DNA from: Stenomitos rutilans HA7619-LM2
Lineage (GTDB): Bacteria; Cyanobacteriota; Cyanobacteriia; Leptolyngbyales; Leptolyngbyaceae
Direction: 5' to 3'
Assembly (NCBI GenBank): GCA_019358945.1
Contig: JAHHIE010000016.1
Location: forward strand, 1 to 64,000
Length of the DNA stretch: 64,000 bases
In this document: positions 5,831-60,930 of the stretch, in pieces
Position numbering within the stretch: the first letter of the stretch is position 1
How the letters are laid out: every line of letters begins with the position of its first letter
The notes under the pieces: model-generated
What the model saw: only the letters and a program-made list of their open reading frames with translations
Told to the model about the DNA's origin: nothing
Databases searched by the model: none
Position numbers and translations under genes: made by a program

Positions 5831-6251
5831 TCCAGCACATTCCGAATTGGGTCGAGCCATCTTTTTAACTGGTCGAGCCATCTTTGCAGTGAGTCGAGTT
5901 ATCTTGAAGCTGAGTTAAGCCATCTCTGCACTCAGTCGATCGAGCTTTTTGCCGGGTCGAGCTATCCCGGCACTCAGTCGAGTCAGCTTTTTATTAGCTT
6001 GAGCCATCCCAGCACTCAGTCGAGCAAGCTTTGGGCTGAGTCAGGCCAGTTCTATACCTGGTCGAGCCAGCTTTTTGCTCAGTTGAGCTATCCATGCACT
6101 CAGTCGAGCCATCTTTTTACCTGATCGAGCAGTCCCAAAACTGAGTTGAGCAGTCTTTGAGCTAAGTCCCGTAGTTTCTGCACTCGGTCGAGCGATCTTT
6201 TGGCTAGCTGAAGCGGTCTCGATCATTGGATCAAGCCATTTTGATGCGGAG
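5831..6251. repeat. 21-bp tandem repeat array, about 19 units
   Basis: Unit starts fall exactly every 21 bases at 5852, 5873, 5894, 5915, 5936, 5957, 5978, 5999, 6020, 6041, 6062, 6083, 6104, 6125, 6146, 6167, 6188 and 6209, then shift by one base to 6231. A diverged unit also begins at 5831. The plus-strand unit opens with TCGAGCCATCTTTTT and closes with a variable GCACTCAG/AACTGG half. Units differ by several bases each, so the array is old or under relaxed selection. On the minus strand each unit encodes a heptad of the pattern L-S-x-K-M-A-R; two in-frame stops interrupt it. Confidence 0.9.
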
Positions 6252-33817: not shown

Positions 33818-36800
33818 ATGGATGCTGATGCAGCACTCAAAATTGTTGAAAAAGCGTTGAGCGACAAGCGTTTAGGGCGATTGCAGGTGATCGTGTTTCG
33901 GCAAGCATGGGATGACTTGTCGTATCAAGAGATTGCGAAACAGTCGGGCTACGAAGTGGGCTACATCAAACAAACAGGTTCGCAACTCTGGCAGGTTCTC
34001 TCAGAAGTGGTGGGCGAACGGGTAACGAAAAATAATTTGCAGGTTGCCTTAAAGCGGTACGCCAATCGGGAGGGGATTGGGAGTCAGGAGTCGGGAGTCG
34101 GAAGGCAGGAGTTGGGAGTCGGAAGGCAGGGGACAGGAGACAGGGGACAGGGGGCAGAGGATAGGGGGCAAGAACTCAGAACTCAGAACTCAGAACTTAA
34201 AACTCAGAACTCTCCACACTCTATACCCCACCAAGACTGGGGCGAAGCCAGCGATGTTTCGGTTTTTTATGGTCGATCGGCTGAACTCACCACCCTGGAG
34301 CACTGGGTACTGGACGATCGCTGTCGCCTGATTGGCCTTTTTGGCATGGGTGGCATTGGCAAGACGGCGCTCTCGGTTCGGCTGGCAAAACACATTCAAG
34401 ACCATTTTCAATACGTCATCTGGCGATCGCTCCGCAATGCCCCACCCATTCACACGCTGCTGCATGATTTGATTCACTTCGTTGCCAATCAGCAGGCGCA
34501 GGCACTTTTGTCAGACATGGACACGCTAGACAAGCAGATCTTGCGGTTGCTGCACTATCTACGCGCTCACCGCTGTTTGCTGATTTTGGATAACGCCGAA
34601 ACTGTGATGCAACCGGGCGATCGTGACGGGGGCTACCTACCAGGCTACGAGGGGTATGGTCAGCTCTTGCGGTGCCTCAGCGAAACCCCACACCAAAGTT
34701 GCTTGCTCATGACCAGTCGTGAAAAGCCCAAAGGGCTTGCGCCCAGAGAGGGCGACAACTTGCCTGTGCGATCACTCCAATTGACGGGCATACCAGCCGC
34801 GATCGGACGGGAAATCTTGAGCATCAAAGGCACCTTCTCTGGTTCGGCAGCAGAATGGCAACAGCTCGTTGACCACTATGCTGGCAATCCTCTCGCGCTG
34901 AAAATTGTCGCTACAGCGATCGCTGATTTCTTTGACGGCAGCCTGACGCAGTTTTTAGACTTTTCCCAGCAAGGTAGCTCGGTCTTTGGGGACATTCGGG
35001 ACTTGCTGGCACGCCAAATGGGTCGCCTATCTGATCTCGAACAACAGGTCATGTTCTGGCTGGCAATCAACCGCGAACCGCTTCGCTTTGCAGAGTTGCA
35101 GACCGACTGTTTGCCACCTGTAACCCCTACCCAACTGCTCGAAACCCTCACAGCTCTAGAACGACGCTCTCTCATTGAAAAAAACGGCACTCTTTTCACG
35201 CTGCAACCCGTCGTGATGGAGTATATGACCGAGCGGTTGATTGAGGATGTGTGTGGAGAAATTAGGGGAGTGGGGAGTGGGGAATGGCGAGTAGGGGAGG
35301 AGAAGGCAGAGGGCAGGGGAGAGGGGACGGGGAACAGGGGGCAGGGGGCAGAACTCAGAACTCAGAACTCTCTAGCAACGCGGCGCGAAGCGCTACTCAA
35401 AACTCAAAACTTAAAACTCAAAACTCAAAACTCAAAACTGCCTTCTACTCCTTTAATGCGATCGCACGCACTCATCAAAGCGCAGGCAAAAGATTATGTG
35501 CGTGAGGCGCAAATACGCTTGCTGCTGTTGCCAATTGTCGATCGCCTGTTGCACAGTGGCAGTCGAGCGGATGTTGATCGTGACCTGATGCAGCTTCTCA
35601 GTGCTCTACGTGGGCAGGCACCCCACACGATCGGATATGTGGGTGGCAATGTGATCAATTTGCTCTGTCAGCTTCAAGTCGATCGAGCTGATGACGAGCT
35701 GGCGCTGAGTGGTAGTGGGATGAGCGATCCAGGGTTGGGCAACCGCACTGTAGCTGTGTTGCGCGATCGTGACTTTTCTCACCTCACCCTCTGGCAAGCC
35801 TACCTCCAGAAAGTACACCTGCATGGAACCGATTTTTCTTACTCTGATCTCAGCAAATCGGTCTTTACCGAAACGTTTAGCCAAATTCTGGCAGTTGCCT
35901 TTAGCCCGGACGGCAAATTGCTGGCAGCAAGCGATATTAGCTACGAGGTGCACATCTGGCAGGTATCTGATAGCAAGAAGTTGCTTACCTGCAAGGCTAA
36001 GGATGGCTGGGCCTGGTCGGTTGCCTTTAGCCCCGATAAACGGCTGCTTGCCAGTAGCGCTAATGGCACCATTCACCTGTGGGATTTGCACACAGGCGAT
36101 TGTGTACAAACGCTCCAGGGCTATACCAGTCGTGTGTTCTCGCTGGCCTTTGACCCCACTGGTACGTACCTCGCCAGCGGCAACGAAGATCCCCAAGTGA
36201 GAATCTGGAACGTTGCCACAGGCGCACTCACCGCAGTCTTGACGGGTCATACCGATGAAGTGCATTCTGTCGCATTTAGCCCGGATGGACGGCTGCTAGC
36301 CAGCGGAAGTTACGATCGCACCATCAAGTTATGGGACATGTCAAATTTGGCGCAGGAGTCAGAAGTTAGAAGCCACGAGCCAGAAGTCAAAACTCAAAAC
36401 TCAAAACTCAAAACTCAAAACTTCCCCCCTCACTCCTCACTCCTCACCCTTACCGATCACGCTGATTGGGTCTGGTCGATCGCCTTTAGTCCCGATGGCA
36501 GAACGCTGGCTAGTAGCAGCAGCGATCGCACCATCAAGCTGTGGAATATGGAAACTCAGCAGTGCTACAAAACCTTGGTGGGGCATGCGGAAGCGGTGCG
36601 ATCGATTGCCTTTGCGACATCTCCAGGCAGTGGGTTGCACGGTGCGTGTCTCGTCAGTGGCAGTGATGACCACACGGTTCGGTTGTGGAACGACAGTGGC
36701 GATTGCCTGCGGGTGCTGCAAGGTCATACCAGTTGGATTTCTGCTGTTGCCTTCAGTCCGGCTGGAAGCCTGCTAGCCAGCGGTAGTGAGGATCAGTCTG

Positions 36801-38092
36801 TCCGCTTGTGGGATGCCCGCACGAATCAATGCTTACGCTTACTGCAAGGCTACAACAGCGGTGTCTGGTCGATCGCCTTCAGCCCCAATGGGCAAACCCT
36901 GGTCAGCGGCGGACAAGACCGCACCATCCGCCTGTGGCAACTTTCGCAAGACAAGCGATCGATCGATCGTCACCCCACCCCGCCCCCTGCACCCGATACC
37001 CTCACCGGGCACACTAGCTGGGTTTGGTCAGTTGCCTTCAGCCCCGATGGCCGCATGATCGCCAGCGGCAGCGAAGATGGTACTGTACGCCTGTGGAAGG
37101 TCACGGCCTACGAAAGGCAGAAGACACTCCCCACCCCACCCCCCACTCCCCACTCCCTCACCCTCACCGGACACACCCACGCCGTTTGGTCAGTTGCTTT
37201 TAGCTCAGATAGTCAACTGCTAGCCAGCGGTAGCCTGGATGGGACGATTCGCCTTTGGGAGCGATCGGGCGATGAGTCCCCATATGTGTCTAAGCAATGT
37301 TTGTATGGACACGAAAGCGGCGTTTGTGCGGTTGCCTTTACGCCTCAATCACCTTTTGCAGGACGACGGCACCTCCTCGCCAGCGGCAGCCAGGATCAAA
37401 CCATTCGATTCTGGTCGATCGTCACCCCAACTGCGCCGCTACATGCCCCCAACAGTCCGCCATCCATGAATGTGCAACCTTTAAATACGTTGCATGGTCA
37501 CATGAGTTGGATTCGCTGTATTGCCTTCAATCCCGATGGCACGCTACTGGCGAGTGGTGGGTCAGATGGCATTGTGATTGTATGGGACGTGCAAACGGGC
37601 GATCGGCTACATACGTTTCAAGCGCATTCCAGCCTGGTGCTGACTGTTACTTTTAACCCTGAGGGCACCATATTAGCCAGTAGCGGGGGGGATGGCATCA
37701 TTAAACTGTGGGATATTGCAGAAGTCAGAAGTCAGAAGTCAGAAGTCAGAAGTCAGAAGTCAGGAGCTATTCAATCCAATGCTCTCCCCTCTTCCCTTGC
37801 CTCCCTCCCCCTGCTGCAAACTCTACACGGGCATCAAAATTGGGTTCGCTTTCTGGACTACAGCCCCGATGGCACATTACTGGCAAGCTGTAGTCAGGAT
37901 GGCACCGTTAAGCTCTGGAGTCAGACTGTGGATGGCTTTGAACCATCATGCCTTGAAACATTAAGGGTGCAACGACCGTATGAGGGGGCAGAAATTACAG
38001 GGGTAACCGGACTCACGACCGCTCAAAAGAACACTCTGAAGTTACTTGGCGCGATCGAGCATCCGACAGACTGCGCCTCACCACCCACCTAG
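33818..38092 (+). CDS. STAND NTPase with VMAP-type HTH, NB-ARC and WD40 domains
   Basis: A 1424-residue signalling ATPase. Residues 1-82 resemble the N-terminal helix-turn-helix of cyanobacterial vWA-MoxR associated proteins. NB-ARC follows (about 147-470): P-loop GMGGIGKT 176-183, Walker B CLLILDNAE 253-261, MTSR 298-301 and GNPLALK 356-362. From about 686 to 1390 there are about 14 WD40 blades (AFSPDG...LLASGS...RLWD). Unusual are four low-complexity inserts at about residues 84-133, 482-545, 844-876 and 1302-1330 that are translated spacer-type heptamer repeats, plus Pro-rich linkers. STAND proteins oligomerise on ligand detection; target unknown. Confidence 0.92.
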   Translation: MDADAALKIVEKALSDKRLGRLQVIVFRQAWDDLSYQEIAKQSGYEVGYIKQTGSQLWQVLSEVVGERVTKNNLQVALKRYANREGIGSQESGVGRQELGVGRQGTGDRGQGAEDRGQELRTQNSELKTQNSPHSIPHQDWGEASDVSVFYGRSAELTTLEHWVLDDRCRLIGLFGMGGIGKTALSVRLAKHIQDHFQYVIWRSLRNAPPIHTLLHDLIHFVANQQAQALLSDMDTLDKQILRLLHYLRAHRCLLILDNAETVMQPGDRDGGYLPGYEGYGQLLRCLSETPHQSCLLMTSREKPKGLAPREGDNLPVRSLQLTGIPAAIGREILSIKGTFSGSAAEWQQLVDHYAGNPLALKIVATAIADFFDGSLTQFLDFSQQGSSVFGDIRDLLARQMGRLSDLEQQVMFWLAINREPLRFAELQTDCLPPVTPTQLLETLTALERRSLIEKNGTLFTLQPVVMEYMTERLIEDVCGEIRGVGSGEWRVGEEKAEGRGEGTGNRGQGAELRTQNSLATRREALLKTQNLKLKTQNSKLPSTPLMRSHALIKAQAKDYVREAQIRLLLLPIVDRLLHSGSRADVDRDLMQLLSALRGQAPHTIGYVGGNVINLLCQLQVDRADDELALSGSGMSDPGLGNRTVAVLRDRDFSHLTLWQAYLQKVHLHGTDFSYSDLSKSVFTETFSQILAVAFSPDGKLLAASDISYEVHIWQVSDSKKLLTCKAKDGWAWSVAFSPDKRLLASSANGTIHLWDLHTGDCVQTLQGYTSRVFSLAFDPTGTYLASGNEDPQVRIWNVATGALTAVLTGHTDEVHSVAFSPDGRLLASGSYDRTIKLWDMSNLAQESEVRSHEPEVKTQNSKLKTQNFPPHSSLLTLTDHADWVWSIAFSPDGRTLASSSSDRTIKLWNMETQQCYKTLVGHAEAVRSIAFATSPGSGLHGACLVSGSDDHTVRLWNDSGDCLRVLQGHTSWISAVAFSPAGSLLASGSEDQSVRLWDARTNQCLRLLQGYNSGVWSIAFSPNGQTLVSGGQDRTIRLWQLSQDKRSIDRHPTPPPAPDTLTGHTSWVWSVAFSPDGRMIASGSEDGTVRLWKVTAYERQKTLPTPPPTPHSLTLTGHTHAVWSVAFSSDSQLLASGSLDGTIRLWERSGDESPYVSKQCLYGHESGVCAVAFTPQSPFAGRRHLLASGSQDQTIRFWSIVTPTAPLHAPNSPPSMNVQPLNTLHGHMSWIRCIAFNPDGTLLASGGSDGIVIVWDVQTGDRLHTFQAHSSLVLTVTFNPEGTILASSGGDGIIKLWDIAEVRSQKSEVRSQKSGAIQSNALPSSLASLPLLQTLHGHQNWVRFLDYSPDGTLLASCSQDGTVKLWSQTVDGFEPSCLETLRVQRPYEGAEITGVTGLTTAQKNTLKLLGAIEHPTDCASPPT
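34070..34212. repeat. Intragenic heptamer repeats, insert 1
   Basis: Runs of GGGAGTCGG-like and GGGGACAGG-like units are followed by AACTCAG/AACTTAA heptamers (34173-34212). They are in frame between the HTH and NB-ARC domains of the STAND gene and encode GSQESGVGRQ and ELRTQNSELKTQNS type peptides. Confidence 0.85.
35267..35445. repeat. Intragenic heptamer repeats, insert 2
   Basis: G-rich units (GGGGAGTGGGG, GGGGGCAGGGG) followed by AACTCAG and then AACTCAA heptamers (35395-35440). In frame between the NB-ARC module and the linker before the WD40 domain. Confidence 0.85.
36352..36435. repeat. Intragenic heptamer repeats, insert 3
   Basis: CAGGAGTCAGAAGTTAGAAG and AACTCAA heptamers followed by CTCACTCCTCACTC. 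They are placed between two WD40 blades and encode EVKTQNSKLKTQN. Confidence 0.85.
37720..37768. repeat. Intragenic heptamer repeats, insert 4
   Basis: Six and a half copies of the heptamer AGAAGTC between the last two WD40 blades; three copies make the 7-residue unit EVRSQKS, which is therefore repeated twice in the protein. Confidence 0.9.
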
Positions 38093-58930: not shown

Positions 58931-59542
58931 ATGATGACCGATCGCGATATCCGTTTCTGCTTTCTCGGTGAGTCGTTTGTCAATGGCACAGGCGATCGCA
59001 CCCATCTGGGTTGGACGGGTAGACTGTGCCAAACCCTGTCTCAACGGGGCGATCGCGTGACCTACTACAACCTGGGAATTCGGCGCGAAACCAGCACTGA
59101 GCTTCTAGGACGCTGGCAGCAAGAGTGTGATCGCCGCCTGCCTCCAAGCTGTCATCATCGCGTTGTTTTTTGCTTTGGAGCGAATGACACGACATTGAAC
59201 GATGGCGGCATGCGTGTGGAGCTGGCGCAATCGCTGGCAAATGCTCGACAGATTTTGAGTGTGGCTCAGCAGACCTATCCAGTTCTAATGATGGGCCCAG
59301 CGCCGATCGCTGATGATGACGCGCAAAACGCCAGAATTCACGAGTTATCAGGCCACTTTGCCCAACTCTGTGAAACGCTTAAGATTCCATATTTAGACAT
59401 CTTTACGCCTCTAAGCCGATCAGCTACCTGGATGCAAGAAGCAAAGGCAGGCGATGGTGCTCACCCAGATGCAGGAGGCTACACCGAACTCGCTCATATC
59501 GTTCAAGCGTGGCCTGCCTGGAACGCCTTCATCTGTTTCTAA
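58931..59542 (+). CDS. SGNH/GDSL-type hydrolase
   Basis: A 203-residue esterase-like protein. Block I reads GES (residues 13-15) instead of GDS, keeping the Ser nucleophile; the Gly/Asn oxyanion residues are in GAND (VFCFGANDT), and the catalytic Asp-His pair in GDGAHPDAGGY. The substrate is unknown. It sits between rbcS and rca on the same strand, which is unusual for a Rubisco cluster; a link to CO2 fixation is not shown. There is no signal peptide, so it is cytosolic. Confidence 0.88.
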   Translation: MMTDRDIRFCFLGESFVNGTGDRTHLGWTGRLCQTLSQRGDRVTYYNLGIRRETSTELLGRWQQECDRRLPPSCHHRVVFCFGANDTTLNDGGMRVELAQSLANARQILSVAQQTYPVLMMGPAPIADDDAQNARIHELSGHFAQLCETLKIPYLDIFTPLSRSATWMQEAKAGDGAHPDAGGYTELAHIVQAWPAWNAFICF

Positions 59543-59598
59543 CTCCCTCACTCCTGACTCCTGACTCCTCACCCCTCTCTCTCCGCCAACAAAGACCT

Positions 59599-60930
59599 AT
59601 GAGCTACTACGTTTCGCCTCGCTTTCTCGACAAACTTTCGGTTCACATTACCAAAAACTTTCTGGATATTCCCAGCGTTAAAGTGCCGCTAATTTTAGGC
59701 ATTCACGGGCGTAAGGGCGAAGGCAAATCTTTTCAGTGCGAACTCGCGTTTGAGCGCATGGGTGTCAATGTAGTTTACATGTCTGCTGGGGAACTCGAAA
59801 GCCCAGATGCAGGCGATCCCGGACGATTGGTGCGCTTGCGCTACCGCGAGGCAGCCGAACTGGTGAAGGTGCGCGGCAAAATGGCGGTGTTGATGATTAA
59901 TGACATTGACGCAGGTGCTGGACGGGTCGATCAATACACGCAATACACCGTAAACACTCAAAACGTGAACGGGACGTTGATGAATATTGCCGACAATCCC
60001 ACAAACGTCCAGCTTCCCGGTAGCTACGAACTGGAACCCAATCGACGTGTGCCGATTATTGTGACGGGGAATGACTTTTCCACACTGTATGCACCGTTAA
60101 TCCGCGATGGGCGGATGGAGAAGTTTTTCTGGGAACCCGATCGCACCGATCGCGTTGGCGTTGTGAGCGGCATTTTCGAGGCCGATGGGGTGCAGCGTGG
60201 AGCCGTCGAAACTCTGGTAGACACCTTTCTCGATCAGTCGATCGACTTTTACGGAGCCATCCGATCGCGTCTCTATGACGAACAGGTCAAAGCCTTAATT
60301 GACGAAGTAGGAATCGATCGCATCTCGCAGCGGGTGGTCAACAGCGAACAGTCCGCACCCATCTTTCGCAAACCGAACTTCAACCTGCCGCATTTGCTTG
60401 AAGTGGGTCATCAACTCGTCGCCGAACAGCGCCGCATTCAAGAGATGGGGCTGGCAGAGCAATACAACAAAGCGCTGTACTTTAACCGGAAGCTGGGCGA
60501 TGTCGATCGGGACGCTCTCAAACAACCCGCACCTGCCAACACGTCCTCGTACTACCACAAGTATGAAGATAGTCATACTGCTGGCAGTGGCAATGGCAAG
60601 AGCGAGTATCCGTCATCACCTGCGAGCTATGCGGGACAGCCCTCCAGCACCAAGCTCACTCCAGATGTGGTAACCCAGGTCAACCAGATTTTGAAGCAAG
60701 GGCTGCGGCTGGGCATTGAAACCGTGGACGAGCGACGCTTCCGCGCCAACTCCTGGAATTCCTATGGTGCTTTTCAGGGACAGGCATCAGAGGCGATCGC
60801 GGCTCTAGAGTCCTGCCTTGCTGAAAATGCCAAAAGCTACGTCCGGCTTGTAGGCATCGATCCTGAGAATCGACGCAGAGTAACAGAGACAATCATTCAA
60901 CGACCCAACGGCAAAGTCGCCTCAGCCTAG
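59599..60930 (+). CDS. rca: Rubisco activase with small-subunit-like domain
   Basis: A 443-residue AAA+ ATPase that removes sugar phosphates from Rubisco. Walker A GRKGEGKS is at 37-44 and Walker B MINDIDAG at 99-106; NDFSTLYAPLIRDGRMEKF contains the arginine-finger region. After a Ser/Pro linker (about 330-350) comes a SSUL domain (about 350-435; TVDERRFRANSWNS and SYVRLVGIDPENRRRV), which docks the enzyme to Rubisco in carboxysomes. ATG at 59599 is the family start. It lies 0.7 kb after rbcS. Confidence 0.96.
   Translation: MSYYVSPRFLDKLSVHITKNFLDIPSVKVPLILGIHGRKGEGKSFQCELAFERMGVNVVYMSAGELESPDAGDPGRLVRLRYREAAELVKVRGKMAVLMINDIDAGAGRVDQYTQYTVNTQNVNGTLMNIADNPTNVQLPGSYELEPNRRVPIIVTGNDFSTLYAPLIRDGRMEKFFWEPDRTDRVGVVSGIFEADGVQRGAVETLVDTFLDQSIDFYGAIRSRLYDEQVKALIDEVGIDRISQRVVNSEQSAPIFRKPNFNLPHLLEVGHQLVAEQRRIQEMGLAEQYNKALYFNRKLGDVDRDALKQPAPANTSSYYHKYEDSHTAGSGNGKSEYPSSPASYAGQPSSTKLTPDVVTQVNQILKQGLRLGIETVDERRFRANSWNSYGAFQGQASEAIAALESCLAENAKSYVRLVGIDPENRRRVTETIIQRPNGKVASA

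Follow-up and report, generated by a model that had tools for sequence, protein, structure and literature searches.

Heptameric tandem repeats of the STRR type, which in cyanobacteria have so far been treated mainly as spacer DNA, lie within open reading frames of many genes, conserved enzymes among them, in a 7.28-Mb draft genome (G000) of a filamentous cyanobacterium of the Leptolyngbya-like group, closely related to Leptolyngbya sp. ES-bin-22, Stenomitos frigidus ULC18, Tildeniella nuda and Lyngbya sp. HA4199-MV5. The most heavily loaded carrier of the repeats in a sample of 1.264 Mb, taken by regions and covering 17% of this genome, is a STAND-type gene located in a 64-kb stretch of contig C6, hereafter the window. 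The best explanation, to which we assign a probability of roughly 0.7, is that the repeats are tolerated coding insertions, filtered for frame and rapidly turned over, which form disordered loops. The pattern is real and general, and mostly reflects such insertion and turnover rather than a sensor protein gaining adaptive linkers. It suggests that, in this cyanobacterium and its relatives, non-coding repeats have turned into disordered segments of proteins again and again.

Under this explanation, STRR-type heptamers would repeatedly enter, and grow within, protein loops able to accommodate added residues. A new array would have to lie on the right strand and bring the total indel to a length divisible by three, and selection on the downstream domain would purge arrays failing either requirement. 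The surviving segments, presumably translated and probably near-neutral in effect, would most likely be disordered loops, whose units turn over fast as they are re-seeded out of the genome's current repeat pool. The arrays themselves may originate by slippage, or by arrays recombining with one another, small palindromic elements being nested within them.

Arrays and a nested element in the STAND gene

The reading frame of the STAND gene spans 1424 amino acids without interruption. Its product contains an NB-ARC domain (E=3.8e-10, above the profile cut-off) and 13 WD40 stretches along its C-terminal half, and thus combines an NB-ARC/NACHT-type NTPase with C-terminal repeats, as a STAND NTPase with a WD40 sensor does. 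A PADLOC search for membership in a defence system matched nothing but a HEAT-ARM profile lying across the WD40 part, which is uninformative. Tandem Repeats Finder located repeats of period 7 or its multiples at 34085-34212, 35263-35298, 35395-35439, 36387-36422 and 37719-37763, and a lag-7 scan marked 284 bases of the gene. When lags 4 to 21 were scanned, marks besides those at 7 appeared only at the harmonics 14 and 21, and 300 codon-shuffled copies of the gene yielded no period-7 array. The initial annotation had listed four places for such arrays; all four were recovered by both methods, yet the list was incomplete, having missed the CCCCACT-type array of L5 and the palindromic element nested in L2 (Table 1). 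Its placement of the inserts in frame, at domain edges and in loops between WD40 repeats, was borne out; L2, for instance, separates the close of the NTPase/winged-helix part from the helical region that follows. The label “spacer-type” is apt insofar as four arrays (26782, 27540, 42766, 42894) lie in clear spacers of the window, but the spacers are not where the repeats are richest: the STAND gene alone accounts for 284 of the 451 lag-7 array bases in the window.

Table 1. Coordinates of the STAND gene, its inserts and the nested palindromic element (positions are those of the window unless a genome and contig are given)
Feature	Position	Strand	Description
STAND-type gene	33818..38092	+	HTH-like N-terminal region, NB-ARC NTPase, helical region, WD40 repeats
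Insert L1	34061..34234	+	58 aa, HTH-like region/NB-ARC junction; GGGAGTC/GGAAGGC, GGGGACA, AGAACTC heptamers; AlphaFold pLDDT ~26
Insert L2	35246..35458	+	71 aa, after NTPase/winged-helix part; GGGGAGT, G-rich, AGAACTC, AACTCAA heptamers; pLDDT ~25-35
Nested element AACTCTCTAGC-N14..-GCTACTCAAAAC	35366..35403	+	inside L2, 38 bases, not heptameric; palindromic core about 35371-35395
Insert L3	36338..36454	+	39 aa, WD40 repeat junction; AGAAGTC-like, AACTCAA, CTCCTCA heptamers; low pLDDT
Linker L4	36938..37006	+	23 aa, WD40 repeat junction; C-rich, with repeats only in degenerate form; several orthologues carry heptamer arrays at this site
Insert L5	37097..37168	+	24 aa, WD40 repeat junction; CCCCACT-type heptamers at 37129-37157
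Insert L7	37715..37828	+	38 aa, WD40 repeat junction; AGAAGTC heptamers, >6 copies; low pLDDT
Further copy of nested element	G000:C70:267961-267997		nested in AACTCAA array
Further copy of nested element	G001:C89:142861-142898		within STAND orthologue; nested in AACTCAA array

In two AlphaFold models, both of only moderate quality (mean pLDDT 52 and 68), the centres of the insert loops score about 25-45, compared to 75-93 for most WD40 strands. These low-confidence loops look disordered, as the initial annotation had expected, and are consistent with disorder of the predicted segments. Four paralogues in G000 share this architecture and, over the large part of them that was covered, contain no arrays. 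WD40 architecture was therefore rejected as the cause of the arrays. The same four paralogues indicate that tolerance alone cannot say why this particular gene is so loaded.

The inserts possess a characteristic internal order. On the coding strand, and across all STAND orthologues, they proceed from purine-rich to pyrimidine-rich (mean difference 0.27 vs. 0.00 in the core control), and intergenic AACTCAA arrays in G000 and G010, read on the AACTCAA strand, are similarly composed of a purine-rich part, then AACTCAA, then a pyrimidine-rich part. Such an order suggests copying of whole mosaics instead of single units, or strand-dependent growth of the mosaic. Simple slippage of one unit leaves it unexplained, which counts against the tolerated-insertion explanation. 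None of the inserts exhibited a special fold better than that of shuffled sequence. The nested pattern AACTCTCTAGC...GCTACTCAAAAC has 26 matches in G000 and 34 in the related genome G001, none in G010, G017 or G021, and 0 in a reversed control of this genome. Inspection by eye of its GGCGC-AAA-GCGC hairpin shows one pair switching between G-C and A-T, apart from a few exceptions, a hint that the hairpin may be conserved.

The constant order, its recurrence around intergenic arrays and a palindromic element that recurs and is nested at a single register are what would be expected if the purine-rich/AACTCAA/pyrimidine-rich mosaic and its palindromic element were copied together as a unit, a piece of selfish coding DNA spread by transposase-like or recombination machinery. 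We consider such a mobile composite possible but unlikely, given that its ends and length are not fixed and that unit content varies by site and species. It overlaps with the explanation by tolerated, frame-filtered insertions, and differs from it in the mechanism of spread.

Arrays in other genes and the filter on strand and length

The initial annotation had described the in-frame arrays for a STAND/WD40 gene. They are not specific to such genes: the 1.264-Mb sample contains 103 arrays, 39 of which fall inside 22 genes and have coding signal before and after them. Coding sequence makes up 0.81 of the sample, but only 46 of the 103 arrays lie in ORFs. The repeats are therefore of the STRR type, being tandem arrays of 7-base units present in many dispersed copies that are mainly intergenic and depleted from coding sequence. 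Extrapolated to the whole genome, of the order of 125 genes would carry internal arrays. We lean toward the broader proposition that in this Leptolyngbya-like lineage about 100 conserved genes, including those of essential enzymes, harbor frame-filtered, frame-indifferent arrays that are continually rewritten from a non-coding pool. If true, non-coding repeats would be supplying protein sequence directly, and would be doing so still.

Isoleucyl-tRNA synthetase (IleRS), squalene-hopene cyclase and arginine decarboxylase (SpeA) carry arrays, each with one strong match in the genome, as do RecJ, RsmG, an amidase, a CheA-like kinase and an ABC transporter. Solved bacterial IleRS structures have a short loop between DVWFDSGSSWAAV and YPADMYLEGSDQHRGWFQ, and so do the enzymes of G001, G004, G017 and G021; in six genomes the loop is longer, and its heptamer-coded residues differ. 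This loop is a cleaner case of insertion than the STAND gene. In squalene-hopene cyclase, the residues on either side of the insert correspond to positions 458 and 468 in the solved structure. A small second element resembling CCTTCGGGAACGCTACGCGAAC follows the heptamers inside the IleRS gene (L084:11082-14099; array at C39:312832-312868), and a similar sequence is found in linker L2 of G005.

Two candidates were set aside as in-gene cases due to the absence of coding signal before the array: ORF 59509-60930 of the window (score 1.1) and ORF C39:239746-242223 (scores 0.9 and 3.8). In both, the true start codon is probably downstream of the array. The former is Rubisco-activase-like, with an AAA domain and a RuBisCO small-chain-like domain, and its apparent start precedes a heptamer array at 59545-59579.

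How such arrays keep the frame follows from simple arithmetic. Because 7 equals 1 modulo 3, a tandem 7-mer encodes one and the same heptapeptide in all three frames, as checked by translation. The units AACTCAA, AGAAGTC and AGCGGTC contain a stop on the opposite strand, leaving one strand only stop-free. Among the internal arrays that are open on only one strand, the sense strand is open in all frames in 19 and not in 4, a bias that in part follows from how an open frame is defined. With arrays indifferent to frame and stops confined to one strand, the filter acts on strand and total length, not on unit count; the initial annotation's proposal that frame is kept by units in multiples of three does not stand.

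Linker variation among orthologues and the repeat pool

Clear STAND orthologues were identified in nine related genomes, their cores being 61-90% identical, and in all nine the linkers are expanded at corresponding sites with differing units and lengths. Two domain junctions (L1 and L2) and four WD40 junctions (L3, L4, L5 and L7) range from 2 to 91 aa across species, while most other inter-WD40 linkers measure 11 aa in practically every species. The frame is open on both sides of the inserts in every orthologue. Purifying selection on the protein core is strong, with a dN/dS of 0.04-0.08 where measurable, and linker dN is 0.5-1.0. Between-species variation in length is strong, but does not proceed in the steps of 21 bases that the initial annotation had proposed. 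Among 117 comparisons of length at a site, 15 gave a difference that is a multiple of 21 bases, against a chance expectation of 16.7; measured from the canonical 11-aa linker, the added length was a multiple of 7 aa in 3 of 27 cases. This absence of stepping fits a filter on total length.

Adaptive linkers offer another reading, in which variable, disordered linkers would tune the spacing or oligomerisation of the sensor, or vary its length among strains. The STAND gene does hold six of the 39 internal arrays in the sample, and all orthologues are expanded at the few shared sites only. However, the same repeats reside in unrelated housekeeping enzymes, neither the sequence nor the length of the linkers is conserved, paralogues of like architecture lack arrays, and lengths do not step by 21 bases. 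We therefore regard an adaptive role as doubtful.

In seven repeat-rich genomes, lag-7 identity of the linker DNA is 0.40-0.56, whereas the core shows about 0.25. The linkers of G004, G017 and G021 have a value of 0.31-0.35, and several of them are long nonetheless. Inserts in homologues whose DNA is not repeat-like, which the initial annotation had named as the observation that would speak against it, were thus encountered in part, and the order “repeat first, linker later” is left unproved for the STAND gene; in these three genomes, linker expansion may have preceded the repeats. Variable linkers at fixed sites with differing repeat signal indicate that the sites are tolerant and that repeats come and go there.

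Derivation of the inserts from each genome's own repeat pool, another claim of the initial annotation, gained support from whole-genome counts of five unit families. Units in the linkers correlate with those in the pool at a Spearman coefficient of 0.66 (P<0.0001, genome labels permuted), at 0.57 when three repeat-poor genomes are left out (P=0.0006), and at 0.55 for three enzymes taken together (P=0.0001), the P values being indicative only, as the genomes are related to each other. G002, for example, has 718 AGCNGTC matches and 5 of AACTCAA, and its linkers consist of AGCNGTC; G010 has no AGCNGTC match in its genome and none in its linkers. Exceptions occur, such as GGCAGRR, with 465 matches in G002 and none in its STAND linkers. 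Against the 718 AGCNGTC matches of G002, G004 has 0, and GGCAGRR matches number 1052 in G006 vs. 7 in G004. Such sharp differences among species of one genus indicate that the repeat pool itself turns over fast.

The pool also bears on whether low-complexity linkers might have been selected as amino acid sequence, with the DNA repeats as a by-product. The long linkers of G004, G017 and G021 with their weak DNA signal would be congruent with such convergence at the protein level. Yet a period of 7 bases is not a multiple of 3, no other unit length occurs, the same units fill spacers, and unit choice is set by the genome pool rather than by position in the protein, which together render it highly improbable. 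Misassembly of repeats into genes is more improbable still: short repeats are prone to it, and the G005 orthologue does reach a contig end within its last insert, but the sites are shared across separate assemblies, including the 3-contig G010, and the flanking frame is always open.

Relation to known repeat systems

The G-rich heptamer repeats of Nostoc are mainly intergenic and under-represented in coding regions (Rehm 2015, PMC4692102). TAACTGA heptamers are likewise mainly intergenic, and the presence of heptamers in genes is restricted by stop codons on one of the two strands (MacGregor 2015, PMC4679880). The arrays described here resemble these cyanobacterial repeats in their 7-base tandem units, many dispersed loci, multi-unit mosaics and lineage-specific repertoires. 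Unlike the Nostoc heptamers, they are far more genic, with 39 of 103 sampled arrays internal to genes, placement in conserved enzymes, and unit turnover at fixed loops. In heterocyst-forming cyanobacteria, Vioque reportedly described in 1997 STRR within the gene for RNase P RNA; this case is alike in having heptamer-type repeats within a functional gene, and unlike in that an RNA gene has no reading frame.

The closest parallel is provided by the Rickettsia palindromic elements, repetitive DNA lying in frame in many unrelated conserved genes whose products are apparently functional (PMC10969869). In-frame insertion across many unrelated conserved genes is likewise seen here, in the 22 genes of the sample. 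Those elements, however, are ~150 bp long, palindromic, and encode a conserved peptide, whereas the 7-base arrays vary in length, lack defined ends and give the same reading in every frame. Lacking also any better folding, the heptamer arrays work like Rickettsia palindromic elements but are not such elements. Phase-variation simple sequence repeats, such as Haemophilus tetranucleotides, share the in-gene tandem units of a length that is not a multiple of three; they switch genes on and off by frameshift, whereas every orthologue here is open, with one genome per species.

A microsatellite survey of Leptolyngbya-like genomes considered 1-6-base units only, which places heptamer inserts outside its scope (PMC8619395). 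The literature searched yielded no account of heptamer arrays lying in frame in many conserved proteins, a weak indication of absence since few subscription papers were covered. If general, the arrays would offer an experiment of nature in how protein arises from non-coding repeats, in which loops of essential enzymes admit foreign sequence, and in how rapidly such a segment is replaced. They would also be a warning to annotators and modellers that such linkers hold little inherited information at the protein level.

Very small mobile elements of cyanobacteria, repeated and roughly 24 bases long, are said to have been described by Elhai in 2008 in association with heptameric arrays. The nested TCTAGC...GCTA element resembles them in this association. 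A separate tandem array at 5844-6205 of the window, with a ~42/126-base period and a GTCGAGCCA motif, is unrelated to the heptamers.
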